DNA of 35,191 nt from a virus (IMGVR_UViG_3300025010_000155:1-35191), one strand, 5' to 3'. Shown: positions 1,803 through 29,380, counted from the stretch's first letter. Numbers and translations: made by a program. The notes: generated by a model from the sequence alone, not told the origin.

Positions 1803-3932
1803 TTATATTAGTGTTTGACGACGAGGAGGGTTCTTTGTAGGATTTGGCATTGCCGCATTTTGTGCCCCAAATGCATTAGCCTGATTAGCTCTCTCCCCCG
1901 TCTTATTTTTTAGAAACTCTAACTTCTCTATTTCGGACATATTACCAGCCTTTATTACAAAAGAACTACTGCCCGCGATAGTGCCTGGATTAGAGGAACC
2001 TTCCTTGTTAAGTCTGTCTAAAATATGGGCCTTTAGGTGGTCCGGCAAGTAAGATAATACTTCCATTTGAGCTTCCTCTGTAAGGTGCGCTAGTTTATTT
2101 ATAATAGCTTGTGTCTGCGTTTCCATTGCTGGCGTCACTTGATACCTTACTAATTCCTGTGGGAGCCCCGGAACTATATCATATATGCTCCTATGGGCGG
2201 TAGCTTCTTTATTTAGAGCTTCAGCATAAGGGAAAGCTACTTTCTTAACGTCTTTTTTTTCTTTATTTACAGGCGCCCCATGCTTTTTCTCCGCCTTAGC
2301 CTGCCCGTCTGCCTTACCCTCCTCTTTAGCAGAGGCTAAGTTTTTCTGATGCTCTACTTCACCTTTTTGTTCTTCTTTCTGTGCTTTCTGTTGTTCCTCT
2401 TGCTCTGGGTTACCAAATTGTGCCTGTTGTTGTATTTGAAACTGCATTTGCTGTTGTTGCAACATAAACTGAGTTTCCATTTGGTAAAACTGCATACGGC
2501 GCTCTCTATCCATACGTTCAAATATTTCCACTTCAATTTGAACCTTCATCTTATCAGGGTCCATACCCATCATATTATACATATATTCGTCAGATACTTT
2601 ATTCGCAGCATTTAGATTAATAACCAGTTGTTTCTGTTGTATGTCGTCCTGCATTTTCAAATCAGCTAATTTAGCAGTTATTAAAAAGCTGTTGTCTTGT
2701 GGGCCACGCCATTCTCCCCTTGCCTCCGCCATTCTCTTTATAAGAAAGTTATTCTGAAAATCAACGAGAAGCAGACGATAATTTATAAATTGATTCTCTA
2801 ATGTACGAAGAGAAATAGAAGCCGCCGAGTAACTAACCCCGCCAAAAATAAATTCTCTGGGGACACCCATACCTGCTAAAATCTCTGCTTGTAATTGATC
2901 TATTTCTGGTGTTAGCATTAAGGCTCTTCCCTGACCGCCCAGGTTTATTACGTTGACAGGAACAGGCGAGACTACTTTATAATTGGGGTCTTTAGTAGCC
3001 TGCTCTAGTTGCCTAGCAAAGTCACTAGCCACATTGCTCCAGTTAGCCATGGGGTCTACCCTTTCTGTCGGGTCCAGGTAGTAAACCCTAAAGGGGACTA
3101 TATGCTCCCGTGCAATGGCCTCCTGAGCCTGTCTGAGGAGGTTCCTATAAGCAAGTTGTTTCATAACATTCAGGATAATAGGTGTGCCCCAAACTGAGCC
3201 GTCTCCTGACTCACCTTCGCGGGAGAAATGGTACACATTCTTGCTATTTAAAATAACAGTTTTATTTTCCTTAACTGCCTTTTTAATAGTCTCAGGAATG
3301 GCATCGAATTTTTCCTTTGGTTTCTTTTCTCTGCAAATCCTTCTTATCTTGTGGGGAACTTCCCACTTGTATGTTTTTTCCTGTGTAAGCGGGTCTATAT
3401 CTATAGTCATCTTACTAGGGTCTAGCCTAAAAATATGCTTCCACCTTATATCCGGTATACTAGGGTCTTCTGAGAAATCCGCAAACTCCCCAAATATAAA
3501 GCAGTTACCGTATAGCCAGTAATCTATACCTATTTTTACTAACTCGCCGTGTACTTTCATATCCTCAAAATTCTGTTTATACATTTCCAAAGTTGGCGAA
3601 TCCTGCTTAGGGTCCCAACCTCCTGGCAGTGACTGCATATCTTCCAATATTACATCAGTTACGGGAAACCTAGCTAATGCATTTACCGCCCCACCAATTA
3701 AACTATCAAACTTATAAAAGTATCTGCACCATTTAAATATCTCTATCATTGTACGAGGTATTTGATAATCGGATAAATTTAAATAAGGTGAAGGATAAGG
3801 GTCTTGGTCCCGCATCATAAAGGATGCTGTCTTAGATAATCCGGCTAACGCCGAGCCCTTAGCCTCTTTTAGTATTTTATTCTTCTCCACTTCCCAGCTG
3901 GAAGATGAAGGAAGATATATGCTGCTACTCAT
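1803..3932 (-). CDS. Portal protein
   Basis: A 709-residue protein with the features of a phage portal, the dodecameric ring through which DNA is packaged and ejected. N-terminal to middle segments such as FDSLIGGAVNALARFPVTDV, and the later GVPREFIFGGVSYSAASISL followed by FINYRLLLVDFQNNFLIKRM, are portal-like (wing, stem and clip region). The C-terminal third is Gln/Lys-rich low complexity (MQFQIQQQAQ and following), then a conserved-looking end. Three hydrophobic-x-K-x-A motifs occur (LSKTA, VKKVA, LNKEA). It is the last gene of a leftward operon starting at 8256. The portal lies far from the terminase gene here. Assignment is by recognition of the segments, not alignment. Confidence 0.8.
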   Translation of the reverse strand: MSSSIYLPSSSSWEVEKNKILKEAKGSALAGLSKTASFMMRDQDPYPSPYLNLSDYQIPRTMIEIFKWCRYFYKFDSLIGGAVNALARFPVTDVILEDMQSLPGGWDPKQDSPTLEMYKQNFEDMKVHGELVKIGIDYWLYGNCFIFGEFADFSEDPSIPDIRWKHIFRLDPSKMTIDIDPLTQEKTYKWEVPHKIRRICREKKPKEKFDAIPETIKKAVKENKTVILNSKNVYHFSREGESGDGSVWGTPIILNVMKQLAYRNLLRQAQEAIAREHIVPFRVYYLDPTERVDPMANWSNVASDFARQLEQATKDPNYKVVSPVPVNVINLGGQGRALMLTPEIDQLQAEILAGMGVPREFIFGGVSYSAASISLRTLENQFINYRLLLVDFQNNFLIKRMAEARGEWRGPQDNSFLITAKLADLKMQDDIQQKQLVINLNAANKVSDEYMYNMMGMDPDKMKVQIEVEIFERMDRERRMQFYQMETQFMLQQQQMQFQIQQQAQFGNPEQEEQQKAQKEEQKGEVEHQKNLASAKEEGKADGQAKAEKKHGAPVNKEKKDVKKVAFPYAEALNKEATAHRSIYDIVPGLPQELVRYQVTPAMETQTQAIINKLAHLTEEAQMEVLSYLPDHLKAHILDRLNKEGSSNPGTIAGSSSFVIKAGNMSEIEKLEFLKNKTGERANQANAFGAQNAAMPNPTKNPPRRQTLI

Positions 3933-3949
3933 ATTACTTCTCCCTCTTT

Positions 3950-4819
3950 CTAATCATACAGTCCTTGGTTTTTAAAGTAAATAGACCTAAGTCCTTGTGG
4001 CCTCATTTTATGTATGCCTTCGTTTCCATATACAGGGTCGTAAATAACATGGTTGGAATTAGTATTTCCCATTATTGAATTCATATCGGAATGTTCTAAA
4101 CTTTTTAAGTCCTTGGGGTTTTTATTATACCCTATCATCCCTGAAGGGGTTGTTAACTGCCACCCTTTAGAGCCTATTCTCTGTGCTTCCTCGTTTTTAC
4201 TATACTTCTTAGCTCCACTAAAAGGGTGTGTATGAATACCTGCTACTTCGCTAAACCCGTCTCTGTAAGGACTTTCCGCACTTACTCTATTAGGGGTTCC
4301 TACGTTTATAGCCCCTACTCTGAAATCACCTTTTAGTGAATTTGTCATGTACTCGCTGTATAGGCTATTTTTGAACTCCGGGGATATTCCCTTACCTTTA
4401 AATAAGTTCATTGTTTCATGGTAGGCTTCTTCATTGCCTTTATTATCCCCCGTAAGATGTGTGTAGGGACTATTATATTTTAAAGAAGGAGCTTTACCTT
4501 CATACGACAACTTACCGTTTATTTTGTCTATATGAGTACCGATTTCAGTACTCATGCCTGTCTGTCGAGCGGAAGAATTCAGGGTCTGACGTAGATTGTT
4601 AGGCATCTTACCCATACCCTCTTTAGCAGAGGCTAATTCTCTTCCCTGCAGTACATTTCCCTGTCCGTCCCTCATGTTGCGTAACGCCCATTTCCAATTG
4701 CCTGCAGGTTGTAGTCCTACAGACTTGGCCATATTGCGTGCTTCGAGGGCGTTAAGAGCTATTTTAGTCAGCCTCTCTTCCGCCGCTAATTTACACCAAG
4801 GGTCTAACCCAATATTCAT
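3950..4819 (-). CDS. Virion-block protein with JAB-like HTHP motif (copy A)
   Basis: A 289-residue protein, paralogous to the 4849-5742 gene. Residues 1-114 are about 80% identical between the two, and the last ~35 residues (from VIYDP to the end) are nearly identical; the middle differs. The centre has HTHP at 196-199, then S, then TTPSG at 223-227. This order (HTHP...S...TPsG) resembles JAB/MPN-like domains found in polymorphic-toxin and DUF4329-type proteins, but the usual acidic ligand after the serine is not obvious, so zinc-peptidase activity is doubtful. It contains WCKLA and LTKIA. It sits directly upstream of the portal gene in the operon. Confidence 0.7.
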   Translation of the reverse strand: MNIGLDPWCKLAAEERLTKIALNALEARNMAKSVGLQPAGNWKWALRNMRDGQGNVLQGRELASAKEGMGKMPNNLRQTLNSSARQTGMSTEIGTHIDKINGKLSYEGKAPSLKYNSPYTHLTGDNKGNEEAYHETMNLFKGKGISPEFKNSLYSEYMTNSLKGDFRVGAINVGTPNRVSAESPYRDGFSEVAGIHTHPFSGAKKYSKNEEAQRIGSKGWQLTTPSGMIGYNKNPKDLKSLEHSDMNSIMGNTNSNHVIYDPVYGNEGIHKMRPQGLRSIYFKNQGLYD

Positions 4820-4848
4820 GAATAATAACCTCCCCTAACTAACGCTTC

Positions 4849-5742
4849 CTAGTTATACAAGCCTTGGTTTTTAAAGTAAATTGACCTGAGCCCTTGTGGT
4901 CTCATTTTATGTACCCCTTCGTTGCCGTGTATAGGGTCATATATAACCTCATGGGTAAGTTCAGGATAATTTCTAGTTATTCCACTCATATCACCTGTAG
5001 TAGAACTAGGCAGACCGCTCCAGTCTGGTATGCCGTTGTCTGTACGGCTAACGCCTTCTCCACCATTTAATTTGTTCTCCCTTAATTTTGTTATATTGTT
5101 CCTACGCTTTTCCGATAATTCCTGAGCAAAATTTAAAGAGCCTGAGGGAGTTGTTATTCTCCAGTCTTTATGTCCAGCTCTTTTAAACTCTGGTCTTTTA
5201 TTATTAATATCATTATTTTTAAATGCATGTGTGTGTACTCTAATATGATGCTCCCCTCCATCTTGAACCACATAAGGATAACCCTTAAATTCCCCTCCTA
5301 CACTAATGCCATCAGTGTAAAAATCATTTTTAAAAGGGTGCTTATTAATTGAGGACCCTGGTGGCTTTGGCAACGGCGAGTAGTCATAGTAGTTAGGTTC
5401 TTTTAAAGAAGGCGCTTTTTTAGTATACAGTAATTTACCCTCTACTTTATCTGCGTGTGTAGCAATTTCAGTTCTCCCTCCCATCTGTCTTGATGAGGAA
5501 TTGAGTGTTTGACGTAGATTGTTAGGCATCTTACCCAAACCTTCCTTAGCTGTAGCTAACTCTTTGCCCTGCAGTACATTTCCTCGTCCATCTCTTAAGC
5601 TACGCAGAGCCCACTTCCAATTTCCTGCTGGTTGTAGACCAACACTTTTAGCCATATTACGCGCATCTAACGCGTTAAGAGCTATTTTAGTCAGCCTCTC
5701 TTCCGCCGCTAATTTACACCAAGTATCTACTCCAATAATCAT
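4849..5742 (-). CDS. Virion-block protein with JAB-like HTHA motif (copy B)
   Basis: A 297-residue tandem paralogue of the 3950-4819 gene, with the same N-terminal ~114 residues and C-terminal tail but a replaced centre. That centre keeps HTHA at 170-173 and TTPSG at 197-201, so the JAB-like core is shared while surrounding sequence has diverged. GGAGGGG precedes the ATG. WCKLA and LTKIA are conserved. Two fixed ends around a variable middle suggest both proteins dock to the same virion site and present different cores. Function not known. Confidence 0.7.
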   Translation of the reverse strand: MIIGVDTWCKLAAEERLTKIALNALDARNMAKSVGLQPAGNWKWALRSLRDGRGNVLQGKELATAKEGLGKMPNNLRQTLNSSSRQMGGRTEIATHADKVEGKLLYTKKAPSLKEPNYYDYSPLPKPPGSSINKHPFKNDFYTDGISVGGEFKGYPYVVQDGGEHHIRVHTHAFKNNDINNKRPEFKRAGHKDWRITTPSGSLNFAQELSEKRRNNITKLRENKLNGGEGVSRTDNGIPDWSGLPSSTTGDMSGITRNYPELTHEVIYDPIHGNEGVHKMRPQGLRSIYFKNQGLYN

Positions 5743-5754: not shown

Positions 5755-8256
5755 CTAACTAACGTAGTTTTTAATTTGCGCATTCATTTGATTCTCCTTA
5801 TCCTCTAAAAAGGAAGTTAGTGATAAACTGTTAATGACGTTGTTTGTAATAATATTACTAAAAGGATGCGTAGGTAATCCTGTACCCGTCAACATCTCAT
5901 CTACCCTACCGCTTATTTTATTATACCAATTTTCATCGCCCGCTAATTCCTTACACACTTCCTTAGTGATGTTTTGAATGTTTTTTCCCTCAAACTTACT
6001 AGCATCCTTAGACACACCCATTAAGCCTGTGGGTAATATTTTAACCCAATATTCCAGTAATTCCAAGTTAACTAAGTCCCAGAAAGACTGCTCATTTTTA
6101 GATAAGGTAGAGTGCGCACACACACGATAATTTTGGTCAATTAACACCTCTACTAAATAGGATAAGGTATGCTCGCCGAAGTTGTCATATAGGTTATCAT
6201 CTACGTCAGATATTAAATCAGACATGATTCTCATGGCGAATACAAACTCCCCTAGTGATAGATTTGATTCCCTTAAGTCGAAGTTTATAGACTTATCGTT
6301 AAAGGCCCTGACTACCTTCTCAAATGTGTGATACCCTGTAAAGGAAGCATCGCCGTGTAATACTAAGGAGATACACATTATTTTATTCTCTACTATGTCG
6401 GAGATTTTGGACAGGCCGTAAATATCTTTTAAGGAGGATAATATTGTAGTCATATCCCATTCCAGCCATTCATTACCAAATTCCTTCATTAGAAATAAGT
6501 AATACACTTTAGGATGTATACCAGAACGTGTAAATAGTTCCTTAAAAAAAGAGTTACTATCGCCTACAGCGGCTGTTTTCTCTGTTAGCTCTTCAAGACT
6601 CTTCTCAGCTCCGCCAGTGTACTTTCCTTTGTATACAGGAACCTCCATTATACCTAACTTCTTACACGCCTCAATGCGGTGGTGCCCGTCCATTAATATT
6701 TTTTTACCTGGTGTTTGAGGTCTAACTCCGTTTAATTGGTTTACAATGACTACAGGTTGTAAATTACTCTTATTTATCTTGTTGGCTAAGGCATCTACTT
6801 TCTCGTCGTTTACAGGTTTATTAATACCTTGTAAATTACTAACCCTCTCCTTAGACAATTCCCACTCATAGTTTTTAGTAAACGCTAAAGCAGCTTTTAC
6901 ATTAGGGGTTTTATACTCATGGCTAGTAGCGACCATATGAGCTACTTTTTTAGCTATAGGGTTTTTAAAAGCATTTTCAAGCGCAGGTATTTTACCATTT
7001 GCTCCCTCTCTAAAATCTTCCCTAAAAGAAGCTCCTTTTTCTATGTACTCATTTAAATCCATTTTAAGGGGGGTAGAATAGTTAGAGGGTGTGATTTTAC
7101 CTGCAGCCTTTAATAGGTCCTCTAATGGGCCTCCTAGAACCTCTGAGGGGCATTCGGTATCAAAACTGGATTCCTTATTTAACTCCTCCAACTCATCGAA
7201 CTCTTCTGCGGATATTTTGCCTAATCTCTTAGCCTCTAAAAAGAAGCGATTTGTAAAGTACTTATCATCTTTTTTAGAAAAGTTATCATAATCTTCATCT
7301 TCCATTTTAGTAACATTAAGCTGAGAAACAACGACATTATCGGTAATATACAATATTCTATCAGGTAAGTATACGACAGTCATGTGTTTTTTAAGAAATC
7401 CAGGAGTTAATTCCTTCATATCCATTACATTAGGTTTACCGAAAAAAAGGAAGGCAAGCTTACTCATGCCTAAATCAAAGTCATCTTCCCCGGCGAACTT
7501 AGCCATACCTAACTCTACAGGAATATTTCTTTCGCTCCACTCACACGCAACAGAAATAAGACTATTAGCATATTTGTTCAGGGATTCATTACTCTCCCCT
7601 TTCTCAAATAACTTACTAAAATAGTCTGCGCAAGCTAATACCTCTAAGAGGTGGGCTTCCTCAGAAACACCCTCATCTCCATCAACATACGCGAACTCAG
7701 AGCTATTTTTAGACAAGGCTTTACGTAACTCTTTATCTTGCTCCATAAGCCTTTTTATAAATACCTGCTCAGTCTCTTGCGCATCTAAATATATTTTATT
7801 AATAATGACATTTTTAAAGTATTCTGGATCTTTTCTTTTCCATGCCTCTCTCGCCTGGGTGTTCATGGTGTCCGCGTTTACAGTGTCTATTGCTGTATTT
7901 CTTAAAATAAATACCACAGACAGAGGGGTAAACATAATTTTAATGTCTTTCTCTATATCCTCTATTTTAGAGTAGTAATTACTCCCCATATCTACGAGTT
8001 TTTTATTTTGTTCGTTCAATAACTTAGCCACGGAATTTGCGTACATTTGTTTGTACTCATTGGCCTTCTTATTATCTTCTATAGCGGTGCCCATCTTCAT
8101 ACCCACCATACCGCCTATAAGTGCCCCACTACCTATACCAATATCAAACGCTGATTTGGTTAGCTCCATCGTTTCTTCATTACTTTTATATTCTAACTCT
8201 AATGCCTTATTTACAGCGTCTATCATCCAATTTGGGTTACTATCATAAATCGCCAT
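5755..8256 (-). CDS. Large virion-block protein with embedded ParB-like domain
   Basis: An 833-residue protein. A glycine-zipper hydrophobic stretch lies near residues 37-60 (FDIGIGSGALIGGMVGMKMG). The middle (about 470-545) resembles the ParB/sulfiredoxin fold: a stretch ending QPVVIVNQLNG is followed by ILMDGHHRIEACKKLGI, where DGHHR at 523-527 matches the ParB-type D/NGxHR motif. The rest is unrecognised. At least seven hydrophobic-x-K-x-A motifs are present (LTKSA, LNKYA, MAKFA, MSKLA, LLKAA, IEKGA, VSKDA). It is the first gene after a strong sigma-A promoter and leads the portal operon. ParB-fold domains in phages can act as nucleases or NTP-binding modules; activity here is inferred only. 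Confidence 0.7.
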   Translation of the reverse strand: MAIYDSNPNWMIDAVNKALELEYKSNEETMELTKSAFDIGIGSGALIGGMVGMKMGTAIEDNKKANEYKQMYANSVAKLLNEQNKKLVDMGSNYYSKIEDIEKDIKIMFTPLSVVFILRNTAIDTVNADTMNTQAREAWKRKDPEYFKNVIINKIYLDAQETEQVFIKRLMEQDKELRKALSKNSSEFAYVDGDEGVSEEAHLLEVLACADYFSKLFEKGESNESLNKYANSLISVACEWSERNIPVELGMAKFAGEDDFDLGMSKLAFLFFGKPNVMDMKELTPGFLKKHMTVVYLPDRILYITDNVVVSQLNVTKMEDEDYDNFSKKDDKYFTNRFFLEAKRLGKISAEEFDELEELNKESSFDTECPSEVLGGPLEDLLKAAGKITPSNYSTPLKMDLNEYIEKGASFREDFREGANGKIPALENAFKNPIAKKVAHMVATSHEYKTPNVKAALAFTKNYEWELSKERVSNLQGINKPVNDEKVDALANKINKSNLQPVVIVNQLNGVRPQTPGKKILMDGHHRIEACKKLGIMEVPVYKGKYTGGAEKSLEELTEKTAAVGDSNSFFKELFTRSGIHPKVYYLFLMKEFGNEWLEWDMTTILSSLKDIYGLSKISDIVENKIMCISLVLHGDASFTGYHTFEKVVRAFNDKSINFDLRESNLSLGEFVFAMRIMSDLISDVDDNLYDNFGEHTLSYLVEVLIDQNYRVCAHSTLSKNEQSFWDLVNLELLEYWVKILPTGLMGVSKDASKFEGKNIQNITKEVCKELAGDENWYNKISGRVDEMLTGTGLPTHPFSNIITNNVINSLSLTSFLEDKENQMNAQIKNYVS

Positions 8257-8323: not shown

Positions 8324-8355
8324 AAAATAATAAACCCCATGTATGGGGTTTATTA
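8321..8355 (-). terminator. Terminator at the end of the 9468-8353 gene
   Basis: On the minus strand a stem of about 12 bp (AATAAACCCC pairing with GGGGTTTATT, 8328-8355) is followed by TTTTTT. The gene's TAA stop (8353-8355) is in the stem. Confidence 0.8.
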
Positions 8356-9468
8356 TCTATAATACATCATTGGCGGAGTCATCATTGGCATTGGTGCTCC
8401 TTGAGCTTGATTATTATTTTGTGGTCCATAAGCCATCATTTTAGGAAGCATCATACCCGCGCCTACCCCCATAGCAGCTGTCATATAAGGGTGAGACTGT
8501 GCGAAGTTAGGCGGGGGGCCTGCCGGCGGCCTGCCTCCGCTATTACCAGGACCCCCATTAGGACCTATAGGACGTCCATAATATCGCTCCATATCCTTAA
8601 CAGTCCCTTTAGGAACTAAACCGGGTTCTTTCATGTACATGTCGTAGTTTGTCTGCATTTGTTGACCTTTACCCCATCCACCTTTTACATTCTGCATAAA
8701 GCTTTGACTGGACATTGCGTTGGCTTCATTATACTTCTTTTGTACATCTCTAGATTTGCCAGACGCAACCATATCAGTCCACGCCTTAGATTGGGCAGTG
8801 CCAGTAACGTTATTAAAGTGTTTTAAGTCCCCTCCAGAGTGAAATACAGGAGTTCCGTACATACTGTTAAAAGAGTTTACGGTATTCTTAGCGTTCATTC
8901 CATCCTTACCGCCTTTAATAGCTCCTTTAACCCCTGCCCCCATCATACCTAAAAAGGCTTCTTTTTCCATTAAGGATTCAGCGACTATATCCAACTCTTC
9001 TTTTCCTAAAAAGGAGGCTATTTTATCCATACTAGTCAGTACTTCTGTGTAGGTATCCGCCGCAGCTATCTTATCCAGAGAAGCACACAATTCCTCCGCT
9101 TCTTTAGGATGCATCCTACTGACCATAGCGCTCAATTTATCTTTATAAGTCATTTTAGCGGGCGGAGGGTTTAATTTATTTTTAAGTTGTTCCACAATAT
9201 CTTTACCCCTTCCTAGCGCAAACTTCGCTCCTATTAACCCTGCAACACCAGCCGCAATTCCTTTTTTATAGCCTTCACTAGAGGCGTCATCATAAACACC
9301 GCTCATGTATTCCCCTAAGTCTACATTCTTCTCAGAGGTGAAATCATACATAGGCAGTATGTCTATCCCTGTCGCCTCCTTTAGGAATGCATAGGAGACC
9401 TCATTTAGGTCAGAAGGAGACAAGTTTGAAGCTAATTTAGTAAACTCATTAAATAATTCCTTGTACAT
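8353..9468 (-). CDS. Virion-block protein, MYKE family member 1
   Basis: A 371-residue protein beginning MYKELFNEFTKLASNLSPSD, related at its N-terminus to the 9483-10175 and 10481-11257 genes (MYKE/MFKN, then FxxLA/LS, then P/QExLDxIA). A glycine-rich hydrophobic stretch (GIAAGVAGLIGAKFALGRG) lies near residue 70. The C-terminal half is rich in Gly, Asn, Pro and Met, ending in a disordered Pro/Gly/Met tail. Five hydrophobic-x-K-x-A motifs occur, including MEKEAFLGMM. No enzymatic domain is seen. Possibly a minor virion or ejected protein. Confidence 0.7.
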   Translation of the reverse strand: MYKELFNEFTKLASNLSPSDLNEVSYAFLKEATGIDILPMYDFTSEKNVDLGEYMSGVYDDASSEGYKKGIAAGVAGLIGAKFALGRGKDIVEQLKNKLNPPPAKMTYKDKLSAMVSRMHPKEAEELCASLDKIAAADTYTEVLTSMDKIASFLGKEELDIVAESLMEKEAFLGMMGAGVKGAIKGGKDGMNAKNTVNSFNSMYGTPVFHSGGDLKHFNNVTGTAQSKAWTDMVASGKSRDVQKKYNEANAMSSQSFMQNVKGGWGKGQQMQTNYDMYMKEPGLVPKGTVKDMERYYGRPIGPNGGPGNSGGRPPAGPPPNFAQSHPYMTAAMGVGAGMMLPKMMAYGPQNNNQAQGAPMPMMTPPMMYYR

Positions 9469-9482: not shown

Positions 9483-10175
9483 CTAAATAAACCTTCCCCT
9501 ACCAGCACCATTAGAGTAAGAACCTCTTAATTCAGATTCTAGTTTATCTTTGTCATTCTTATTTAAAGCCATGTATGCCGCTACTCCGCCTCCTGCTAAA
9601 ATAGGCATTTTATTTTTGGTGAGAAAATCCTTAGCCTTTAAAGCAGCTACGTCTGAGCCAACATCACCGGGTTTTCTTGACTCTCCGTTTATTTCCGAAG
9701 ATACACGTTTATTGGGGTCTTTCATGTCCCTATTATTATTTCTATTGCCTCCGTTATAACCACTGCCATGACCCCCACCTGGAGCAGAGCCTAAGCCTCT
9801 GGAGCCGTATAATCCACCTAAGGCAGCATCTGCTGCTCTCATTTTAGTATTATATCTCTGCTCGTACAATTTCTGTTTGTTACGAGAACTTACCGCCGAA
9901 CTTATAGCCCGATTGTATTTCCATTCAGGCATTTTATGTTTCAAATAGGCAGCTCCTGCTGCAACTCCCCCCGCGCCTATTAATGTTTTCACAGCATCTG
10001 CGTTCCATTCCACGTCCGGCACGTCTAAAGTCACTCCTGCGCTTTTACCCAAGGACTCATCAGGGGAGGCTATCTTTTCCAGCCCCGCGATAACTTGACT
10101 GGCTATAACGTCTAATTCTTCCTGAGATATTGTCCCAGCAAGCGATGTAAACTCCTCAAACATTTCTTTATACAT
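9483..10175 (-). CDS. Virion-block protein, MYKE family member 2
   Basis: A 230-residue protein starting MYKEMFEEFTSLAGTISQEE. The N-terminal helix pair is shared with its two neighbours. A glycine-zipper segment (LIGAGGVAAGAAYLK) follows near residue 65, then a Gly/Asn/Arg-rich disordered linker (GGGHGSGYNGGNRNNNRD), then a second hydrophobic Gly-rich stretch (ILAGGGVAAYMALNKN). LEKIA and LGKSA motifs are present. The design matches a membrane-interacting or internal virion protein; no family is recognised. Confidence 0.7.
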   Translation of the reverse strand: MYKEMFEEFTSLAGTISQEELDVIASQVIAGLEKIASPDESLGKSAGVTLDVPDVEWNADAVKTLIGAGGVAAGAAYLKHKMPEWKYNRAISSAVSSRNKQKLYEQRYNTKMRAADAALGGLYGSRGLGSAPGGGHGSGYNGGNRNNNRDMKDPNKRVSSEINGESRKPGDVGSDVAALKAKDFLTKNKMPILAGGGVAAYMALNKNDKDKLESELRGSYSNGAGRGRFI

Positions 10176-10190: not shown

Positions 10191-10472
10191 CTACAATATA
10201 TTTACAGGCCATCTAGGAGTATATTTTAAATCGGTAACTACCGCATTAGTAATGTTACCTAAAGAGAATTGTCGTATACTTCCTCTTTCTAGACAGAATC
10301 CCCAATATTTGCCGTCTTTTATGTCATAGGGCTCTGTAGCCCTGATAGTAGTAGCCCCTTTACTATCAATATATGTGATGTTGACTACGTGTTTAGTATT
10401 GGCAGCTTTTCTAAGGGCTCTTAAAACTTGAGGTACTATAACAGTGGAAGACATTTTAGCAGGTCTTTTCAT
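10191..10472 (-). CDS. Free-standing WYL-like domain protein
   Basis: A 93-residue protein. Residues 29-78 follow the WYL (Sm/SH3-like) pattern: VNITYIDSKGATTIRATEPY (30-49), then GKYWGFCLERGSIRQFSLG (54-72), then NITNAVV. WYL domains usually sit in transcriptional regulators or CRISPR- and phage-defence proteins and bind ligands or nucleic acid; here there is no DNA-binding domain. The gene lies in the middle of a virion operon and carries one LRKAA motif, so it may be packaged. A capsid-associated Sm-like barrel is the alternative reading. Confidence 0.6.
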   Translation of the reverse strand: MKRPAKMSSTVIVPQVLRALRKAANTKHVVNITYIDSKGATTIRATEPYDIKDGKYWGFCLERGSIRQFSLGNITNAVVTDLKYTPRWPVNIL

Positions 10473-10480: not shown

Positions 10481-11257
10481 TTACCTTTTTCCCTTAAAGT
10501 ATTTAATCAGTGCCCTTCCGCCTAAAACGGCTCCGGCTACCCCGGCCCCTTGAATAGCTCCATCCCCAATACCATCCCTATAAGATATTTTATTAGCGTT
10601 ACCGATAGACACTTCATTATCAGCAGCTACCCCTTTTAACATGTCAATAGGTTGTCGGGGATGTCTGAGGAAATCTAGTTTTTCAAGAGGGGTTTTAGAG
10701 TTATATATGTTAGATGCCAATCCAGAGTTTACGTTTATTTCCTCCCGCGCATCTCTATAAGTATCTTGTAAATCATTATCGAGGACGCTAGTATCTCCAT
10801 AAGGAACACTATAACTAGCAGACTTACGCATCTTCTTCATTATTTTAGGAACTAAATAGGCTCCGGCTGCTACGCTCGCCGCTCCTCCTAGACGCCCCGC
10901 AAACTCCCCATTACCGTTAGAGTCACGCATATTAGTCTTCAACTTAAATGCGGCGCCTTCCTCCATATCATTAAACACATTGCCCGGATTCGTTCTTTCT
11001 AAGTATTCCATCCGGTGAATAGGCGGAAGGCGCTGATATCGGGCCATGAGACTAGTAGAGTAGTCTGGATTTTCCTTTAGGCTATTAGTTACCTCTTCTG
11101 TAACGGCGTTATTTTCTACTTGGTAGGGAGTTTCTTCAGCTATCTTAACAACTCCCTCTTCAAGGGAAGTTAATATTTGTACAGCAATTTTGTCTAAGTC
11201 TTCCGGAGGTAATTCGTTTGACAATTTTACAAAATCATCTAAAATATTTTTGAACAT
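10481..11257 (-). CDS. Virion-block protein, MYKE family member 3
   Basis: A 258-residue protein beginning MFKNILDDFVKLSNELPPED, sharing the N-terminal pattern of the two genes downstream. It has two glycine-zipper stretches: GRLGGAASVAAGAYLVPKIM near the middle, and GAGVAGAVLGGRALIKYFKG at the extreme C-terminus, ending basic. LDKIA, VVKIA and MRKSA motifs occur. A membrane-inserting ejection-type role fits but is inferred. AGAAGGAGAG precedes the ATG. Confidence 0.7.
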   Translation of the reverse strand: MFKNILDDFVKLSNELPPEDLDKIAVQILTSLEEGVVKIAEETPYQVENNAVTEEVTNSLKENPDYSTSLMARYQRLPPIHRMEYLERTNPGNVFNDMEEGAAFKLKTNMRDSNGNGEFAGRLGGAASVAAGAYLVPKIMKKMRKSASYSVPYGDTSVLDNDLQDTYRDAREEINVNSGLASNIYNSKTPLEKLDFLRHPRQPIDMLKGVAADNEVSIGNANKISYRDGIGDGAIQGAGVAGAVLGGRALIKYFKGKR

Positions 11258-12369: not shown

Positions 12370-12391
12370 TATAATGCCCTCCTTATACATA

Positions 12392-12419
12392 ATATTTATA
12401 CTTAGTCTTGTGGGGCGTG
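12392..12419 (-). promoter_or_regulatory. Possible promoter for the 12369 gene
   Basis: On the minus strand TTTCAC lies about 16 bp before TATAAA (GTATAAATA), just upstream of the RBS. The -35 match is poor, so this is tentative; the 110-bp spacer is unusual for this tightly packed block. Confidence 0.3.
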
Positions 12420-12481
12420 AAACATTGAACTTTAAACGCTTCCTTCTACACAGTTTACCACATTGCATACCACTCAGTAAA

Positions 12482-14383: not shown

Positions 14384-15070
14384 TCACCTCATATAACCCC
14401 GTACTATATCCACTGTATTTACAGAGTTAATAATATCATCTAGTTTTATACTCGCCGCTCTTTTTTCTATTTCCTGCTTAACCAAGGCAGCAGCTTCTTT
14501 AGTAGCCATATTATTAGCTATTTTATCTTTAATGGCTCCTACTACTTTGGGCCCATACATAACTGACCCCGTAGTAATACCTCCTACCACAAGATTCTTA
14601 GCTATAGAGGGTCCGGATATCCTTAGCAGTTCTTGGAAATTCTCGGGGGCCAAAGAGCCACCATTCATTTCTTTAGCACTAGCGACTAACTTAGCTTTAT
14701 CTGGTATCAACTCCACAACATTGTCTGTAGGGTGCGCGAATATATTGTGGTCGTCTAAAGGTATATTATGAGTCTTCTCGAAAGAAGTATTCTTTAAGAG
14801 AGATTTTAACTCATCTAATTTTTCATTCGCGTTGGAAGGAAGTTTAAAATCCTTTAGCTCCTCTATAGAATTCACCGGAATCATTCTACGTGAATTATAT
14901 TGCTGCGTATTAATTATAGCGTCAATTTCTTTGTCGTATATAGCCCTTCCGGACTTCAGACCAGATATAACACTGTATCCTGAGGTCATCGTCATAGGGT
15001 GAGTAGCAAATTTAACTGCTGGGTTTACCCTGACAGCTCCCAAAGCTTTAGTAAGTGCACTTAAGTCCAT
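14384..15070 (-). CDS. Virion-block protein, unknown
   Basis: A 228-residue protein beginning MDLSALTKALGAVRVNPAVK. Its start overlaps the stop of the upstream gene (TAATG), a sign of translational coupling. It is mostly helical and polar, with a mildly hydrophobic Gly-containing stretch (NLVVGGITTGSVMYGPKVVG) near residue 175 and a C-terminal helix containing ATKEA and IEKRA. No known family is recognised. Confidence 0.7.
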   Translation of the reverse strand: MDLSALTKALGAVRVNPAVKFATHPMTMTSGYSVISGLKSGRAIYDKEIDAIINTQQYNSRRMIPVNSIEELKDFKLPSNANEKLDELKSLLKNTSFEKTHNIPLDDHNIFAHPTDNVVELIPDKAKLVASAKEMNGGSLAPENFQELLRISGPSIAKNLVVGGITTGSVMYGPKVVGAIKDKIANNMATKEAAALVKQEIEKRAASIKLDDIINSVNTVDIVRGYMR

Positions 15071-18668: not shown

Positions 18669-18683
18669 TCCACCCTTTTTAGT

Positions 18684-18700
18684 GGTATAAGTTAGTTATA
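18684..18700 (+). promoter_or_regulatory. Phage promoter GGTATAAG, gene at 18724
   Basis: ACCCTTTTTAGT, then GGTATAAGTTAGTTATA. TATAAG at 18686-18691. Confidence 0.7.
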
Positions 18701-18723
18701 AATTAAAAGGAGGAAAATAAACA

Positions 18724-18918
18724 ATGAAAGAGACATTAACATTCAGTCAGTGGATAGAGAAACTAGATGAAGAACAAATGCAAGCAACAAAGGAACATAT
18801 AGCAAAACGTATTGAGATATTAGACAGCCCAGAATTAAGAAAGGTGGAAGATAAAAAATATATCGAGAGACTACGTAATACAGTAGCTAGATATGAAGCT
18901 ATTGAATATACGCAGTAA
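18724..18918 (+). CDS. Small helical cassette protein
   Basis: A 64-residue charged helical protein (FSQWIEKLDEEQMQATKEHI and on). AAAAGGAGG precedes the start. The TAA stop directly abuts the terminator stem (AGCCC-TAACAA-GGGTT). It is the last of the four cassettes and converges on the terminase gene 24 bp away. Function unknown. Confidence 0.75.
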   Translation: MKETLTFSQWIEKLDEEQMQATKEHIAKRIEILDSPELRKVEDKKYIERLRNTVARYEAIEYTQ

Positions 18919-18942
18919 GCCCTAACAAGGGTTTTCTTTTTC
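18918..18942 (+). terminator. Terminator AGCCC-TAACAA-GGGTT-T
   Basis: A short stem with T-rich sequence, oriented for the + strand cassette; no T-run on the minus strand for the terminase gene. Confidence 0.6.
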
Positions 18943-20570: not shown

Positions 20571-20599
20571 TATACCCACACCTTATTTTTAGTAGTTCA

Positions 20600-21094: not shown

Positions 21095-22093
21095 TTAATA
21101 ACTAGCTTCTTTTACTAACTCTTCCATAACTTCTTCAGAGATAGCCGCTAAAACTTCTTTTGGTAATTTCTTTTTAGTAATAGCTTTTAATAGCCCTCTA
21201 CCTATTAAGCCTGCCCCTAAAAGACCGGTGGCACCTGCACCCGCAGCTGCATACTCATGTTCACCCGCGAAGTCCAATCCTTTATTTCCCAGCTCATATG
21301 CTTTTTCCTTTAAATTTTGCATAGACTCTTCATTATTAGGATTAAATTTCTGCACCACATTATTAACTCTAGTTTTAAACTCACTTTCGTTAGCGTGGTC
21401 GGCCTTATATTTAAGCTGGTCTGCTTTTGCTTGGGCAGCACTGGCAGCAGCGGCGTCAGCATTAGCCCTATCCATTTTAACCTGATTAGCTGCTGTATCT
21501 GCGTCTGCTTTTTCTTTGTCTGCTAGAGCCTGCACGCGGGCCATCTGCTCAGATTCAGACCTTTCCTGCGCCCTGTTAATAAGATTAGCTCTTTCATCCC
21601 CTCCACGATAACCCATGGAAACATCGGCAGCCCCATTGTCCTTAGACTTACCGTTTATGAGACTCATCACGTCGTCCTTTGCTCGCTGCCAGGCAATACC
21701 GTGAGCTGTAGCGATTTCATTCCCCACAGCTGTAGATTTATTTTTAATAGCCGCCCCAATGTCCTTTACAGTAGCAGGCTGGCTATAAAAAGAGTGATCC
21801 ATGGGCTCTACGTTCAATACAGGGTAGCCAGGTATAGGGGCATGTCTTGATTTTTGAAATTCTTCCCACGTTGACTCTAATTTAGACTGGTGCTGATTAT
21901 TATTACGGTCTCCATAAACATTTCCAACCACAGAGTCCCCATAAACATTTCCAACCACAGATGTTCCATACGCAACCTTAGTGAGCCCCATAACTACTTC
22001 TACAGCGGCTTCTTTAATTACCTCATCCAGAGCTTTATCCCCGTAAGCTACACGGAATAGTTCCAACACATCGTCGTTATTTTTATTGGCCAT
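21095..22093 (-). CDS. Virion-type protein, Ala-rich coiled coil and glycine zipper
   Basis: A 332-residue protein beginning MANKNNDDVLELFRVAYGD. Residues about 48-65 are a tandem 9-residue repeat, SVVGNVYGD x2. The centre is an Ala/Lys/Asp-rich coiled coil (DKEKADADTAANQVKMDRAN and on). Near the C-terminus is a glycine zipper (AAGAGATGLLGAGLIGRGLL) followed by basic residues, and the protein ends LVKEASY. VIKEA, LTKVA and LVKEA motifs mark it as a member of the virion set. It overlaps the upstream gene by 11 bp. Membrane insertion or ejection is an inference. Confidence 0.7.
   Translation of the reverse strand: MANKNNDDVLELFRVAYGDKALDEVIKEAAVEVVMGLTKVAYGTSVVGNVYGDSVVGNVYGDRNNNQHQSKLESTWEEFQKSRHAPIPGYPVLNVEPMDHSFYSQPATVKDIGAAIKNKSTAVGNEIATAHGIAWQRAKDDVMSLINGKSKDNGAADVSMGYRGGDERANLINRAQERSESEQMARVQALADKEKADADTAANQVKMDRANADAAAASAAQAKADQLKYKADHANESEFKTRVNNVVQKFNPNNEESMQNLKEKAYELGNKGLDFAGEHEYAAAGAGATGLLGAGLIGRGLLKAITKKKLPKEVLAAISEEVMEELVKEASY
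21911..21964 (-). repeat. 27-bp tandem repeat inside the 21095 gene
   Basis: Two in-frame 27-bp units, nearly identical in sequence, encode SVVGNVYGD twice. A recent duplication, possibly a phase-variable or expandable stretch. Confidence 0.75.
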
Positions 22094-22526
22094 TATAATT
22101 TCCCCCTAATTTATTTTTATTTAATTTCCTTTTTCTTAGTGCAATTACCGCACCTGTGGCTAAGGCCCCTTTTGCGGCTGTGCTTGCTATCAACCATGTT
22201 GATAATATAGGGTGATTTCCTACAAAGTTCAACGCTTTATTGCTGAGAGTTTCTTCTTCCTCTTCTCCCGCGCATTTAACAATATCCCACATAACTTCTG
22301 CGGCGGCTTCTTTAATTATATCATCTATAGAAGCACTTTTCATTATCTCACTAATAACTATAGACTTTCTTTCCTCACTCATAGTATCAGGGAGAGATTT
22401 ATGCAATGCCAGTGCTAGTTCTGCTTTTTGCGCCTTTTCCTTCTCATGTTTGCGAGCTACTCCAGCACCTAAAAAGGTTAAGGCTCCTGCTCCTCCGAGA
22501 AGTGCCCCTTTAACATAATTAGTCAT
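22083..22526 (-). CDS. Two-span glycine-zipper virion-type protein
   Basis: A 147-residue protein with an N-terminal hydrophobic Gly-rich span (VKGALLGGAGALTFLGAGVA, residues about 5-24) and a second near residues 110-130 (LIASTAAKGALATGAVIALR), each followed by basic residues. The middle is helical and carries IMKSA, IIKEA and IVKCA, then an acidic stretch. Start and stop overlap its neighbours, so the three genes at 21095-23625 form one operon. Function unknown; a membrane role is likely. Confidence 0.7.
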   Translation of the reverse strand: MTNYVKGALLGGAGALTFLGAGVARKHEKEKAQKAELALALHKSLPDTMSEERKSIVISEIMKSASIDDIIKEAAAEVMWDIVKCAGEEEEETLSNKALNFVGNHPILSTWLIASTAAKGALATGAVIALRKRKLNKNKLGGNYNGQ

Positions 22527-22527: not shown

Positions 22528-23625
22528 TTACCACGGCACCTCGTTTCTCACGCTTCTACCATTATGGTTCGGAGTACTATTAACTCCTCCTCCCGTAATA
22601 ATAGAAGAAATATTTTTAGCATTTTCCTTTATATGGTTAATAGGAGAAGGTGAATTATTATTTTCCCTGAATTTACTATTTACAGTATTCTTCAAATAGC
22701 GGGATACTTCTGCGGGAATCTCTCCTGCTTCGTGCGCCGAGTCAATTATATCATGAAACTCCTTACCTATAGCTCCTTTATTTCTAAATTCACTTCTAGG
22801 TATATTTCTAGCAGCTTCACTTATTGCCTTTTCGACATCCTTTGTGGTATTTTTAACTATATTCCTTTTTCTTAAATCATCTATAGAGTTGAATAAAGCG
22901 TCAAACTCACCCTCTTTTTTAGCCGAGAATTCTTTGTATTTACCGGCAGCTACTGCCCCTACATTCCGAAGATTTTTAGTGTCTTCTAAAAGAAGAGTAT
23001 TTTTAGCCTTATTCATTATTCCCTTGTTCCTTATTCCTAAAATAAGGCCTCCCAAGGCGCCCGCCCCGGCTATAGCCACATTTTCTTTAGTGAAGAAGGT
23101 CTTCTTATTCTCTTCATCTTTAACGGTGGCCATCTTTTCAAGTTCTTCCAATGTTCCAGCTATTGCCGCGTATACAGGCATAGGAGGGTACCTACGCACA
23201 CTATCATTACCATTTAGTAAACTCATTGCCCCGGCACCGGCTACGACTCCTGTGCCCGCTATAGCCCCTGTAGTCAACGTAGGACTAGCTTTAAAGGCAT
23301 CTTTAATTGTATTAGACGCTCTTGTTTTGAACACTGGATTAGGACCCATTGTCCCCCCTGGATTCCAAGTATTTTTTATAGCCCCTGCCCATCCGGACAC
23401 TTTAGCCTGAGAAGAAGCGGAAAGAAGAGGCTTAACTGCTCCTTTATATGCGTACTTTCCAGCTGCTACAACCCCTTTTGCTATCATACCAAACACAGCT
23501 ACTTTCTCTAAAGAGGTTAATTCCCTATCTAAGGACTGCTCTGCTGCTAAAATAAAGTCGGCAGCCAGTTTATTTAATTCGTTTTCCGGTGAGTCTCTCA
23601 CTGCGTCCACTACCTTTCTAACCAT
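22528..23625 (-). CDS. Virion-type protein with two glycine zippers
   Basis: A 365-residue protein, first gene of the 23625-21095 operon. It has Gly/Ala-rich spans near residues 120-140 (TTGAIAGTGVVAGAGAMSLL) and 185-200 (AIAGAGALGGLILGIRNKG). LNKLA, LEKVA and LEKMA motifs are present. The rest is helical and polar, ending in a Pro/Asn-rich tail. The start has only a weak AGG site although the promoter is good. No known family. Confidence 0.65.
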   Translation of the reverse strand: MVRKVVDAVRDSPENELNKLAADFILAAEQSLDRELTSLEKVAVFGMIAKGVVAAGKYAYKGAVKPLLSASSQAKVSGWAGAIKNTWNPGGTMGPNPVFKTRASNTIKDAFKASPTLTTGAIAGTGVVAGAGAMSLLNGNDSVRRYPPMPVYAAIAGTLEELEKMATVKDEENKKTFFTKENVAIAGAGALGGLILGIRNKGIMNKAKNTLLLEDTKNLRNVGAVAAGKYKEFSAKKEGEFDALFNSIDDLRKRNIVKNTTKDVEKAISEAARNIPRSEFRNKGAIGKEFHDIIDSAHEAGEIPAEVSRYLKNTVNSKFRENNNSPSPINHIKENAKNISSIITGGGVNSTPNHNGRSVRNEVPW

Positions 23626-25543: not shown

Positions 25544-26320
25544 CTAAGTAATACGGAAATGCTCACCTTCTAGGGGCATTCCTTCCCTTATTTTACTCAT
25601 TTTATTCTTTATAGTATTTAACAAATTTAAGTTACTCAATTTGGAGGCTACCTGCTTTGTTATAGTGGTTTTTTCCCCTAATAGCCTGTTTAATTCCTCA
25701 GGGTAGAAATGCCCAACATACGATACATCAGAAACAGATAATGGCTGTAGTATCTTCTCTGCGTTCTCTTTCCCTGTTATTTTATGTGTCTCATGATATG
25801 CTCTTGCATTAGCCCTCAGCTCTTCTGTCAGTCTCCACACATCGGACTCCCTCTTTTTAGCTGTATCCCCTATAACGTTTTTTAAATATCCACCTATTTC
25901 ATGTGACTTTTCATTTCCCTGTAAATATGCGTCGTTAATGTAAGAATCTAACAACTTCTTTTGAGAAGTACCTAATTTATGCTTTATAGGCAGCATTCTT
26001 TTTAGCTTATCTAGTGTGTCCGCTCGTTCATAAGCATGATTATATTCATGCATAAATGACCAAGGCTCCTTGTATGAAAGAAGTGTGTTAGTATTTGGAT
26101 AGTACGTAGGCTTGAACCTATTATCTGCTTCGCTTATCATCACTAAGTGAGTTTTTGGAAATTGTTTTCTCTTTAAATCGAGTAAGTAGTTGGCATCATC
26201 CCCGTGTATTTTGTACTGTTTTCCTAAGTCCAGCATTAAGTTATTTAAGTCCCTATTTTCCCTTAACGCTTTATCTAATTTACTCCAAGTTTGTGTGGTT
26301 ATTGCTGCTAGTTTGTGCAT
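25544..26320 (-). CDS. Putative zinc metallopeptidase (HExxH)
   Basis: A 258-residue protein. HEYNH (91-95) is a classic HExxH zinc motif inside a helical context (WSFMHEYNHAYERA). A plausible third ligand is in LTEELRANARAYHE (E166 or E167), the E-x-x-A/N-like helix of gluzincins. It begins MHKLAAITT, one copy of the K-x-A motif. It lies immediately upstream of the possible small terminase gene. A maturation or ejection-linked peptidase is attractive but unproven; phage prohead proteases are usually serine proteases. GAGGTG precedes the ATG. Confidence 0.55.
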   Translation of the reverse strand: MHKLAAITTQTWSKLDKALRENRDLNNLMLDLGKQYKIHGDDANYLLDLKRKQFPKTHLVMISEADNRFKPTYYPNTNTLLSYKEPWSFMHEYNHAYERADTLDKLKRMLPIKHKLGTSQKKLLDSYINDAYLQGNEKSHEIGGYLKNVIGDTAKKRESDVWRLTEELRANARAYHETHKITGKENAEKILQPLSVSDVSYVGHFYPEELNRLLGEKTTITKQVASKLSNLNLLNTIKNKMSKIREGMPLEGEHFRIT

Positions 26321-26458: not shown

Positions 26459-29071
26459 CTATTTCGTTCTTTTTAGTAGTTTATTGATCACAGGAGGAGC
26501 GGCCATTAAACCCAGCGCGCCTATAGGACTAGCAGCTATGTTAGCAAACGCATCCACAGCCTTCCCTACACTTCCGCTAACCATTCTCTTTCCTGAGGCA
26601 GGGGGAACCTCCGGAATTACTTCAGCTTTAATTTTATTAGTATGTGCGCCCTGTATATTGGATAGGTTATCTAAAGAGTCGCTAATTCCTGCAGTTTTTT
26701 TAAAATACTGAGCGTACTTATGAAGTCCATCTAAATGTCTCAAAGTAGCATTAATAACATTAGGTGAGATCATCTCATTACGAAGCATACATTGATTTAT
26801 TTTAAGTTCTACTAAATCATATGCTAATTTTTGTAAATAAGGAGTAACTTCATGTAGTTCAGTTAATGTTTCTGCTCCTTCAAATTCCGCATTAACTGTA
26901 GCACACTTTACCAACATATTATCTATTCGGTTCTTTATAACCATAAGAGCGGCTAACTTACTAAACGTAGAACTTTCCTTGGCGATAGCTACCTTCTCTA
27001 GTTTCTCAGCCAAAGCTTCACTTTCGGAGGCAAAGGATTTCAACCCCATGAGAGGTTCTCCCAAAGCGGTCCCTGCTAAAGCGCCACCCAGAAGACCACC
27101 TAACACAGCAGGTATCGCCTTTTTAGCATTCTCCGCGCTAAATAGTGATTCCCTCATATTGGTGACGGCTTTATTTACAGCCATATCAGCAGATACTTCT
27201 GGCTTAACCATCCACGGCGTTAGTCCAGAAGTTAACTCATAACTAGCAGTACCTTCTTTACTAGCCCTATAAGTAATCTCATTTACTTTAGCATAATCAA
27301 AGCCTATAGTCCTTAAAATACCTTTTAGCCTGGGTTCTGGCACATTGTCGAAGGACATGTGCTTATCTTGTTTAAACTTATTATCAAACCATTTCATCTC
27401 GACATTAAACTTATGGTCACTATCCCTTGCGACTAAAGTAACTTTAATTTCATCTTTAAATGAAGCTAATTTAACATTTCCGTCAAAGAGGAACATTGCG
27501 GTTTTTACGTCGCTGATATTATTTATTGCACCATGTTTTAATTGTATAAATTTGGTATTCGGGGATAGGCATAGAATAGGTAATTTGTCACTTAGTATCA
27601 CATTATATCTTCCAAGCTTTTTAGGCTCTTCCCTCTGCGATACATCTACTAAAAAGTCTTTTTTACTTTTTAATATAAGCTGGTTGTCGGAGATATTACT
27701 CACGGAGACTAAGGTAAAACTTTCTCCTTTAACATCATGACAACTATAGAATAAACGTGTGTTGAGGCTATAATTAGCCCCACTAGTTACCTTAGTGACA
27801 ATAAAAGGAACTGTAAATGTCCCGCCTACATTAGCAGTGTAAACATAACCAACGTTTAAGGATTCAATATCCCTATATTTTAAATAGAATTCAGGGCTTT
27901 CCTTTTCTCCAGAAGTGTCTAAATTAAACGCAAATTTATCTCCATTACGTAACAATTTAAATCTTCCATCCGCCGCAATTACCAACTTCTCATCCAGGGC
28001 CACACCTCTTACATTAATGAGGGATTTAAAGATTATACCCTGGGTTTCCCCGACACTCATGCCATCTTTCTCTGTGAATGAAAATTTCTCTGCATTACCG
28101 AGTATTTGCACGTCAGCGTGGATATTCCTATTTAGTGAGTCTAAGAAGGCTTTCTTCTCAAGTGCGCTTTCCGCTGGCTCATCATATTCAGCAGCCGCCA
28201 ATTTTTCAGCCGCCACAAGGAACTGCTTTCTAAACGCTTTTTCCACCCCTAAATAGTCTATTTTTACTTGTCTTATGGAGGCAGTCTTCTCTAACAGGTC
28301 ATCTATTTTAGAGGCGTAAGTGCTTCCCATCCCGGAAGAAGAACCGATTAAACTTTGAATTTGCAGCATATCACCCATAAAGCCACCATCCGTAAGCGGG
28401 CCAGTTCTAGTACCTGCCCCCATATACCCGGACAACGAGGGATTATTGTTAACACTATTTGCATTTTGTTGATTTTCCATCATAGTCTTTATGTTAAAAA
28501 GGATATTTTTGATGTTTTCACGAGTGTAAACAGAGCTTTCCATGCCCATTTGGATAGTGTCAAAAGGAAGTATCTCCTTATCTCTCATCACCCAAGGTAT
28601 TTGCAGCATGGCATTACCATAAGTAATATCCACTGTACCTGAAGCATTCGCTATGCTCATTTCCATTCTGCCAGTGCCATCATTAATAGGGTTGTTGTCT
28701 AAAGGCATAATACCTACAGCTAAATTAACCTTATCCGGGAAGAAACTAAGTTCATTGTACATGAACTCCTTTAGGAATTGTTCTATCCCCTCGGGAGTAG
28801 TGTCGTATACTACCATCCCCGCTAATTTAGACATACTATCCCCTATATGTATATCCTTGGGCAGTAGATTAAAGCCTACTTCCCTACCTTCTTTAGGTAA
28901 GTTCATTTCATAGTCATGAGATTTTTTAATAAATTCCCTGAATACGGATGCGGACTTTTCAATTATTTCGCTTTTAGTTTCATGGCTCCGAGTAAACCCT
29001 TCAGCCAGCCTAGTGGCCAGTGCAGGGTTAGCTGCAGATATATAATCCATAAAATTGACTCTATTCTTCAT
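26459..29071 (-). CDS. Large virion-type protein, unknown
   Basis: An 870-residue protein beginning MKNRVNFMDYISAANPALAT. It has about ten K-x-A motifs (IEKSA, MSKLA, LEKTA, LEKKA, LEKVA, FSKLA, LVKCA, LQKLA, LHKYA, FKKTA), concentrated in the N-terminal and C-terminal thirds. The centre is beta-rich. A glycine zipper (AVLGGLLGGALAGTALGEP, near residue 660) lies before the C-terminal helical region, and the end is hydrophobic then basic (NKLLKRTK). It may be a tail, hub or ejected protein. No family match is claimed. Confidence 0.65.
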   Translation of the reverse strand: MKNRVNFMDYISAANPALATRLAEGFTRSHETKSEIIEKSASVFREFIKKSHDYEMNLPKEGREVGFNLLPKDIHIGDSMSKLAGMVVYDTTPEGIEQFLKEFMYNELSFFPDKVNLAVGIMPLDNNPINDGTGRMEMSIANASGTVDITYGNAMLQIPWVMRDKEILPFDTIQMGMESSVYTRENIKNILFNIKTMMENQQNANSVNNNPSLSGYMGAGTRTGPLTDGGFMGDMLQIQSLIGSSSGMGSTYASKIDDLLEKTASIRQVKIDYLGVEKAFRKQFLVAAEKLAAAEYDEPAESALEKKAFLDSLNRNIHADVQILGNAEKFSFTEKDGMSVGETQGIIFKSLINVRGVALDEKLVIAADGRFKLLRNGDKFAFNLDTSGEKESPEFYLKYRDIESLNVGYVYTANVGGTFTVPFIVTKVTSGANYSLNTRLFYSCHDVKGESFTLVSVSNISDNQLILKSKKDFLVDVSQREEPKKLGRYNVILSDKLPILCLSPNTKFIQLKHGAINNISDVKTAMFLFDGNVKLASFKDEIKVTLVARDSDHKFNVEMKWFDNKFKQDKHMSFDNVPEPRLKGILRTIGFDYAKVNEITYRASKEGTASYELTSGLTPWMVKPEVSADMAVNKAVTNMRESLFSAENAKKAIPAVLGGLLGGALAGTALGEPLMGLKSFASESEALAEKLEKVAIAKESSTFSKLAALMVIKNRIDNMLVKCATVNAEFEGAETLTELHEVTPYLQKLAYDLVELKINQCMLRNEMISPNVINATLRHLDGLHKYAQYFKKTAGISDSLDNLSNIQGAHTNKIKAEVIPEVPPASGKRMVSGSVGKAVDAFANIAASPIGALGLMAAPPVINKLLKRTK

Positions 29072-29097
29072 ATTAATTTGCCCCTTTCTCTGACAAT

Positions 29098-29114
29098 GGT
29101 ATAAGGTATATATA
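29098..29114 (+). promoter_or_regulatory. Phage promoter GGTATAAG, antisense to the 29126 gene
   Basis: GGTATAAGGTATATATA; TATAAG at 29100-29105. It points into the 3' end of the leftward 29126-29380 gene and on to the rightward operon at 29456. A 7-codon ORF (29131-29154) is the only coding potential close to it. Confidence 0.55.
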
Positions 29115-29125
29115 ACGTAGGATAT

Positions 29126-29380
29126 TTAAGATGCATTCTGACGAGCGTTTTTAGTTATAAAACGTCTTTCCGCCTCCAACTCTGTAGACTCTAATTCCAC
29201 TAATTCTTCCCCAATTTTTTCAAACACTCTGTTGTCTTTGGAAATGAAAGTGTTAAATCCAGCGTAATTTAAGTCGTCTGCGTGCGCCATTTTATTTAGT
29301 TCTACAATACGTCCACTTTCCTCATCTATTCCGAAGCCTAATTTATCCATCAGCTCTTTTTCTTCTTTAGACAGTAGCAC
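29126..29380 (-). CDS. Small virion-type protein
   Basis: An 84-residue charged protein starting at GTG (29380) after GGGGG. It contains LNKMA, is rich in Glu and Lys, and ends basic (FITKNARQNAS). It is the first gene of the leftward operon with the 870-residue gene (54-bp gap). A + strand promoter lies just past its 3' end, so it may be covered by antisense transcription. Function unknown. Confidence 0.65.
   Translation of the reverse strand: MLLSKEEKELMDKLGFGIDEESGRIVELNKMAHADDLNYAGFNTFISKDNRVFEKIGEELVELESTELEAERRFITKNARQNAS

Follow-up and report, generated by a model that had tools for sequence, protein, structure and literature searches.

The window (i.e., the whole stretch of DNA analysed, a 35 kb viral fragment) encodes leftward virion-type proteins that share the five-residue motif [LIVMF]xKxA, abbreviated here as hxKxA. 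We translated 20 leftward virion-type CDS and 12 rightward CDS. The main features are given below with their motif copies; an arrow marks the bond predicted to be cut.

1803..3932, minus strand: portal protein, 709 aa (phrog_16240 portal, E 1.4e-19)
3825..3839, minus strand: cut site predicted for the portal propeptide, LSKTA↓S (aa 32-36)
3950..4819, minus strand: virion-type protein, paralogous to 4849..5742, with LTKIA at aa 17
4849..5742, minus strand: virion-type paralogue of 3950..4819, with LTKIA at aa 17 in the common N-terminal leader
5755..8256, minus strand: 833-aa multidomain protein with a ParB-like domain at about aa 479-543, 7 copies
8353..9468, minus strand: 371-aa head-cluster protein, 5 copies between aa 9 and 171 (p 0.001)
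9483..10175, minus strand: 230-aa protein, 2 copies near the N-terminus
10191..10472, minus strand: 93-aa WYL-domain protein of the head cluster, 1 copy at aa 20
10481..11257, minus strand: 258-aa protein, 3 copies
12482..14377, minus strand: 631-aa protein, 4 copies, one of them LEKEA at aa 4
14384..15070, minus strand: 228-aa protein, 1 copy
15070..16059, minus strand: 329-aa core/scaffold-like protein, 9 copies
18942..20579, minus strand: large terminase, a motif-free negative control (phrog_675, E 2.8e-64)
21095..22093, minus strand: 332-aa protein, 3 copies, two N-terminal and one C-terminal (LVKEA↓SY)
22083..22526, minus strand: 147-aa protein, 3 copies
22528..23625, minus strand: 365-aa protein, 3 copies
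25544..26320, minus strand: 258-aa protein whose sequence starts MHKLA↓A and contains an HExxH-type stretch, FMHEYNHAYE
26459..29071, minus strand: 870-aa head protein, 10 copies, aligning to gp218 of Salmonella phage Arash and 0266 of Vibrio phage D69
29126..29380, minus strand: 84-aa protein, 2 copies (p 0.007)

The five copies in the portal protein (aa 20, 32, 562, 573 and 611) all lie outside its conserved core (aa 62-470), and 9 of the 11 close relatives that were aligned retain the copy at aa 32. The core/scaffold-like protein encoded at 15070..16059 has homologues in Arash (gp220) and D69 (0268) that carry nine copies each; its copy at aa 54 is retained in 4 of 5 relatives and that at aa 281 in 6 of 6. 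Likewise, a motif occupies the aa-20 place of the WYL-domain protein in 5 of 8 relatives. None of the seven copies in the 833-aa protein falls within the ParB-like domain. The presence of such a domain inside a head-cluster protein is reminiscent of the 'polyvalent' injected proteins (PMC5512222).

The paralogues encoded at 3950-4819 and 4849-5742 have near-identical leaders (~90 aa) and C-termini (~25 aa) around unlike middle domains that contain HTHP/HTHAF stretches (VHTHAF in 4849..5742). By analogy with the internal proteins of T4, they resemble packaged effectors with a common leader. The HExxH-type stretch makes the product of 25544..26320 a possible packaged metallopeptidase, although no family match was found for it; we also considered this protein as a processing enzyme, a role that was unsupported.

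The regions 1-1500 and 17800-18940 hold repeated cassettes that precede small ORFs every 200-290 bases, each consisting of a terminator-like ACCCGCAAGGGTTTTTT, then conserved promoter-like TGGTATATGTAATATAT and AAGGAGGA, and then the small ORF. A TGGGACAAA-rich repeat is also present with the cassettes, and a perfect 42-bp palindrome lies at 273-314. At 31420-33828, genes for a metallophosphoesterase and an AAA/SMC-type ATPase adjoin in an SbcD/SbcC-like arrangement.

Within the window we counted 61 strict copies of [LIVMF]xKxA, distributed over 17 of the 20 leftward virion-type proteins. Dipeptide-preserving shuffles predicted 14.7 ± 4.0 (z 11.7), and the highest count in 300 shuffles was 33. 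The 12 rightward CDS contained one copy in total, and none was found in the large terminase (18942-20579) or in the products of 24339-25529 and 11338-12468. An earlier note on this DNA had estimated by eye more than 50 strict copies in about 16 proteins, had given counts for the 870-aa protein, 15070-16059 and 5755-8256 that we reproduced exactly (10, 9 and 7), and had assigned the terminase and almost all rightward genes one copy or none. The shuffle comparison that it proposed set the 61 copies well apart from the 14.7 expected, a level that the rightward genes did not match. The recurrence of the motif is therefore real.

About 20 control motifs in which one residue or the spacing was altered (including hxRxA, hxExA, hxKxS, hxKxG, hKxxA, hxxKA and AxKxh) occurred at or close to chance (absolute z no higher than 2.7). 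The signal is thus specific to h, K and A themselves and to the order and spacing in which they occur. When all gapped residue triples were scanned without bias, LxKxA was the top pattern (31 observed, 4.5 expected). Nine proteins were individually enriched at p<0.05, and the remainder, with one to three copies, were individually non-significant. The copies are also placed unevenly: in 15 of the 17 motif-bearing proteins, one lies no further in than residue 45 (6.7 expected, p 5e-5). The motif is immediately preceded by acidic residues and followed by Ser, Phe, Ala or Gly. Since the late proteins are rich in Lys and Ala, amphipathic helices rich in Lys, Ala and Leu might produce such a pattern without any function. 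However, the shuffles preserve both composition and dipeptides, altered-spacing controls stay at or near chance, rightward and tail genes lack enrichment, and the motif sits at fixed positions in the proteases and capsid proteins of relatives. We regard an effect of composition as extremely improbable, and a composition artefact is rejected by the altered-motif controls.

As a control on the method, we turned to T4, whose prohead protease gp21 cuts after Glu in L/I-x-E (PMC9026906). The known code was recovered in gp22, with 16 copies of [LI]xE observed vs 5.7 expected; a signal was also seen in gp21, gp68 and gp23 and not in tail proteins, and hxKxA was near chance in T4. These results suggest that the signal in the window is of the kind left by a prohead-protease code.

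A search of viral contigs with the portal or terminase of the window alone found no close relatives, and profile queries were needed; these yielded 80 loci each for the protease and the portal. Both the portal and the terminase of the window are distantly related to those of Arash, and the portal also to those of Vibrio phages D69, D148 and D181 and Bacillus phage G. In Arash and D69, enrichment of the motif is confined to the head genes that form a block upstream of the major capsid gene. The same motif recurs in ~60 environmental phages and in Desulfovibrio prophages, again confined to the head cluster around the protease gene. Across 65 non-redundant loci, most genes in the interval that opens two genes ahead of the protease gene and closes two genes ahead of the capsid gene were enriched 6-8.5-fold. 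Enrichment was weaker (2.9-fold) for the gene directly before the protease gene and ~1-fold, i.e., chance, for the tail genes downstream of the capsid gene. Thus, the motif is enriched in head precursors and not in tail or replication proteins. Homologous prophage-like loci in contigs from Desulfovibrio and related bacteria (L199-L204) have the same enrichment, which suggests that the lineage probably includes temperate phages. Among close relatives, the Lys of the motif is retained in 41% of aligned cases vs 37% for other Lys residues; such turnover of sites might be anticipated for propeptides that are discarded, though as evidence of conservation it is weak.

Neither PHROG models nor family HMMs detected a protease or capsid gene in the 35 kb of the window. 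Their distribution was examined in nine close-relative contigs, which share 45-57% portal identity with the window. A maturation protease gene, which the earlier note had suggested seeking elsewhere in the genome, was absent from the window and present in 6 of these 9 contigs (E about 1e-60), and a capsid gene was present in 5 (E about 1e-36). The close-relative proteases carry many motif copies, and the capsid proteins have it at their N-termini (PGGLEKIA↓LEK, PGAFEKFA↓SEK and, with Arg for Lys, EGFERYA↓ATK). In one close relative (G002), the protease and capsid genes lie ~20 kb downstream of the portal gene, a spacing that in the window would put them past the left end of the contig. We infer that the phage of the window carries both genes there.

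The protease of the wider family is encoded within the same motif-rich head cluster. Arash gp222, D69 0270 and phage G gp19 (E 2.6e-19) match phrog_18299, head maturation protease. The top structural match of one protease model was T4 gp21 (Z 11.1, rmsd 2.9 over 131 residues), followed by herpesvirus proteases (Z up to 9.9). Sequence comparison with T4 gp21 by hhalign was weak (probability 4%, with the NRN and Ser regions aligned), so the link to gp21 rests on the fold. No sequence match to the family protease was found in the PDB, and 4 of 44 members matched Pfam Peptidase_S78 (PF04586), weakly (best E 0.0096). In a 44-sequence alignment, His96 and Ser147, the presumed catalytic residues, are invariant or nearly so. 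The protease also contains a Cys-rich insert (CSICGN...C..H).

Motif copies bracket the protease domain. On the N-terminal side, the motif lies ahead of the domain in 49 of 52 proteases; on the C-terminal side, it falls within 45 aa after the last conserved block in 55 of 58 non-redundant proteases, and exactly 7 residues past that block in 40 of 58. These positions are those predicted for self-cleavage sites. Lys30 and Ala32 of the upstream copy are nearly invariant in the 44-sequence alignment. In the protease model, the ordered part of the chain begins at ~33 and ends at 219; residues up to 30 are disordered, and order is poor again past 219. The limits of the fold thus coincide with the Ala residues of the two flanking copies, the upstream one at 28-32 and the downstream one at 215-219.

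Family capsid proteins carry the motif within their first 50 residues, near a predicted propeptide boundary, in 43 of 57 cases (0.08 expected in each), and most of the other 14 retain K-x-A. The capsid protein of phage G (L008, 23289-24137) has neither an N-terminal extension nor the motif, and its protease gp19 retains the flanking copies. A capsid protein model places the motif within an N-terminal helix, which neither supports nor contradicts cleavage. The only solved capsid structure in the family is that of phage G (6wkk), whose N-terminus is motif-free, and the mature N-terminus cannot be read from it.

We considered whether the motif could instead be a docking or capsid-targeting signal, i.e., a short helix that binds cargo and core proteins to the scaffold or shell with no cut. 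The mostly N-terminal placement and the restriction to head proteins fit this, and the capsid-targeting sequences of T4 are likewise N-terminal (PMC9026906). However, docking leaves unexplained why copies flank the protease domain on both sides. Copies at the capsid N-terminus, the many copies per core protein and the preference for Ser directly after the Ala also speak against it, and the equivalent statistical signal in T4 is a cleavage code. We thus consider docking improbable.

Together, these data support the hypothesis that the phage encodes a prohead protease of the serine type, with the T4 gp21/assemblin fold, which recognizes hxKxA and cuts there; we assign this hypothesis a probability of roughly 0.87. 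The earlier note had proposed a T4-like maturation site with Lys at P1. The idea of a gp21-like cut site is strongly supported by the gp21/assemblin-fold protease in the motif-rich cluster of relatives and by motifs that bracket this protease and lie at the capsid N-terminus; the placement of the bond after Lys is less likely.

To identify the bond, we analysed the flanks of 1,283 sites in head clusters. Beyond h, K and A, the most informative position was the residue directly after the Ala (0.58 bits, Ser 3.9-fold), and information dropped off past the residue that follows this Ser-rich position. At fixed sites, relatives exchange Ala for Ser or Gly and Lys for Arg. A cut by the same protease after Lys (h-x-K↓x-A) would be the spacing analogue of T4 L/I-x-E: the hydrophobic residue at P3 and the charged one at P1 would be spaced identically, and the hydrophobic position is strongly conserved. 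However, the residue after Lys is variable (often V, I, T, E or Q), that after Ala is often small and Ser-rich, the exchanges are those expected for Ala at P1 and Lys at P3, and the ordered protease fold starts and ends at Ala. A cut after Lys is therefore unlikely. The Ser-rich flank, the exchanges and the fold boundaries instead indicate that the protease most likely cuts after Ala, with a hydrophobic residue at P5, Lys (Arg in some relatives) at P3, Ala at P1 and Ser or another small residue favoured at P1'. Both cleavage itself and the identity of the bond are predictions.

Under the model of cleavage by this protease, the portal, core/scaffold-like proteins and packaged internal precursors would each carry at least one copy, as would the capsid protein and the protease in relatives; most copies would lie where propeptides end or in linkers that can be discarded. 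Once the procapsid has assembled, the protease would trim its own chain on either side of its domain, strip N-terminal propeptides from shell, portal and cargo proteins and chop the core proteins. Some predicted sites may be left uncut.

This system resembles that of T4 in the fold of the protease and the position of its gene among head genes, and also in the multiple copies in scaffold proteins, the N-terminal propeptides, the likely self-cleavage and the statistical signature in substrates. In contrast to T4, the anchors of the motif include no Glu, with Lys at P3 and probably Ala at P1; the protease has the Cys-rich insert; and the window's portal has motif copies at both ends, whereas the T4 portal is uncut (PMC5694885). 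The prohead proteases of giant phages, phiKZ gp175 and SPN3US gp245, recognize S-x-E and A-x-E, respectively; gp245 prefers Ser at P1' when it cuts after A-x-E, its C-terminal self-cleavage has been reported, and the SPN3US portal and capsid proteins lose propeptides (PMC10052503, PMC5694885). These large phages share with the present system many internal head proteins and the preference for Ser at P1', but their proteases cut after Glu and their motif is other than hxKxA. The consensus here, hxKxA[S], is thus not the T4 or phiKZ code itself; because the T4, phiKZ and SPN3US proteases all cut after Glu, it represents a new specificity within a known kind of system.

The likeness to herpesvirus assemblin (S21) is one of fold. 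Herpesvirus assemblin cuts Ala-Ser bonds, which is the bond inferred here; it is not known to require Lys at P3. Homologues of the phrog_18299-type protease also occur in Mycobacterium cluster C phages (Myrna, Alice), Gordonia phages and Rhodococcus phage E3. In this group, the protease and capsid proteins are direct sequence homologues, and the capsid N-terminus GLGRFA↓K resembles the motif with Arg for Lys. Unlike in the present family, the protease is fused to large C-terminal regions, and hxRxA is enriched only ~2-fold. Desulfovibrio prophages have the Lys version of the motif. The open-licence literature that we searched contained no description of an LxKxA-type motif or of Arash.

These results suggest that large tailed phages and prophages of one widespread lineage probably share a distinct maturation code, hxKxA↓Ser, which is read by the lineage's own gp21-fold protease and spans portal, core, shell and packaged effectors. 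If so, an Ala-directed, Lys-anchored specificity would join a protease class in which the characterised members, of the T4/phiKZ type, cut after Glu, and phage prohead proteases would be tied closer to the herpesvirus assemblins. Specific predictions would follow for the isolates Arash and D69 and for the Desulfovibrio prophages. The motif would be a sequence-readable label for proteins carried inside the capsid, marking encapsidated cargo and the precursors of the head in a large group of uncultured phages in which nearly every head protein is annotated as 'hypothetical'.
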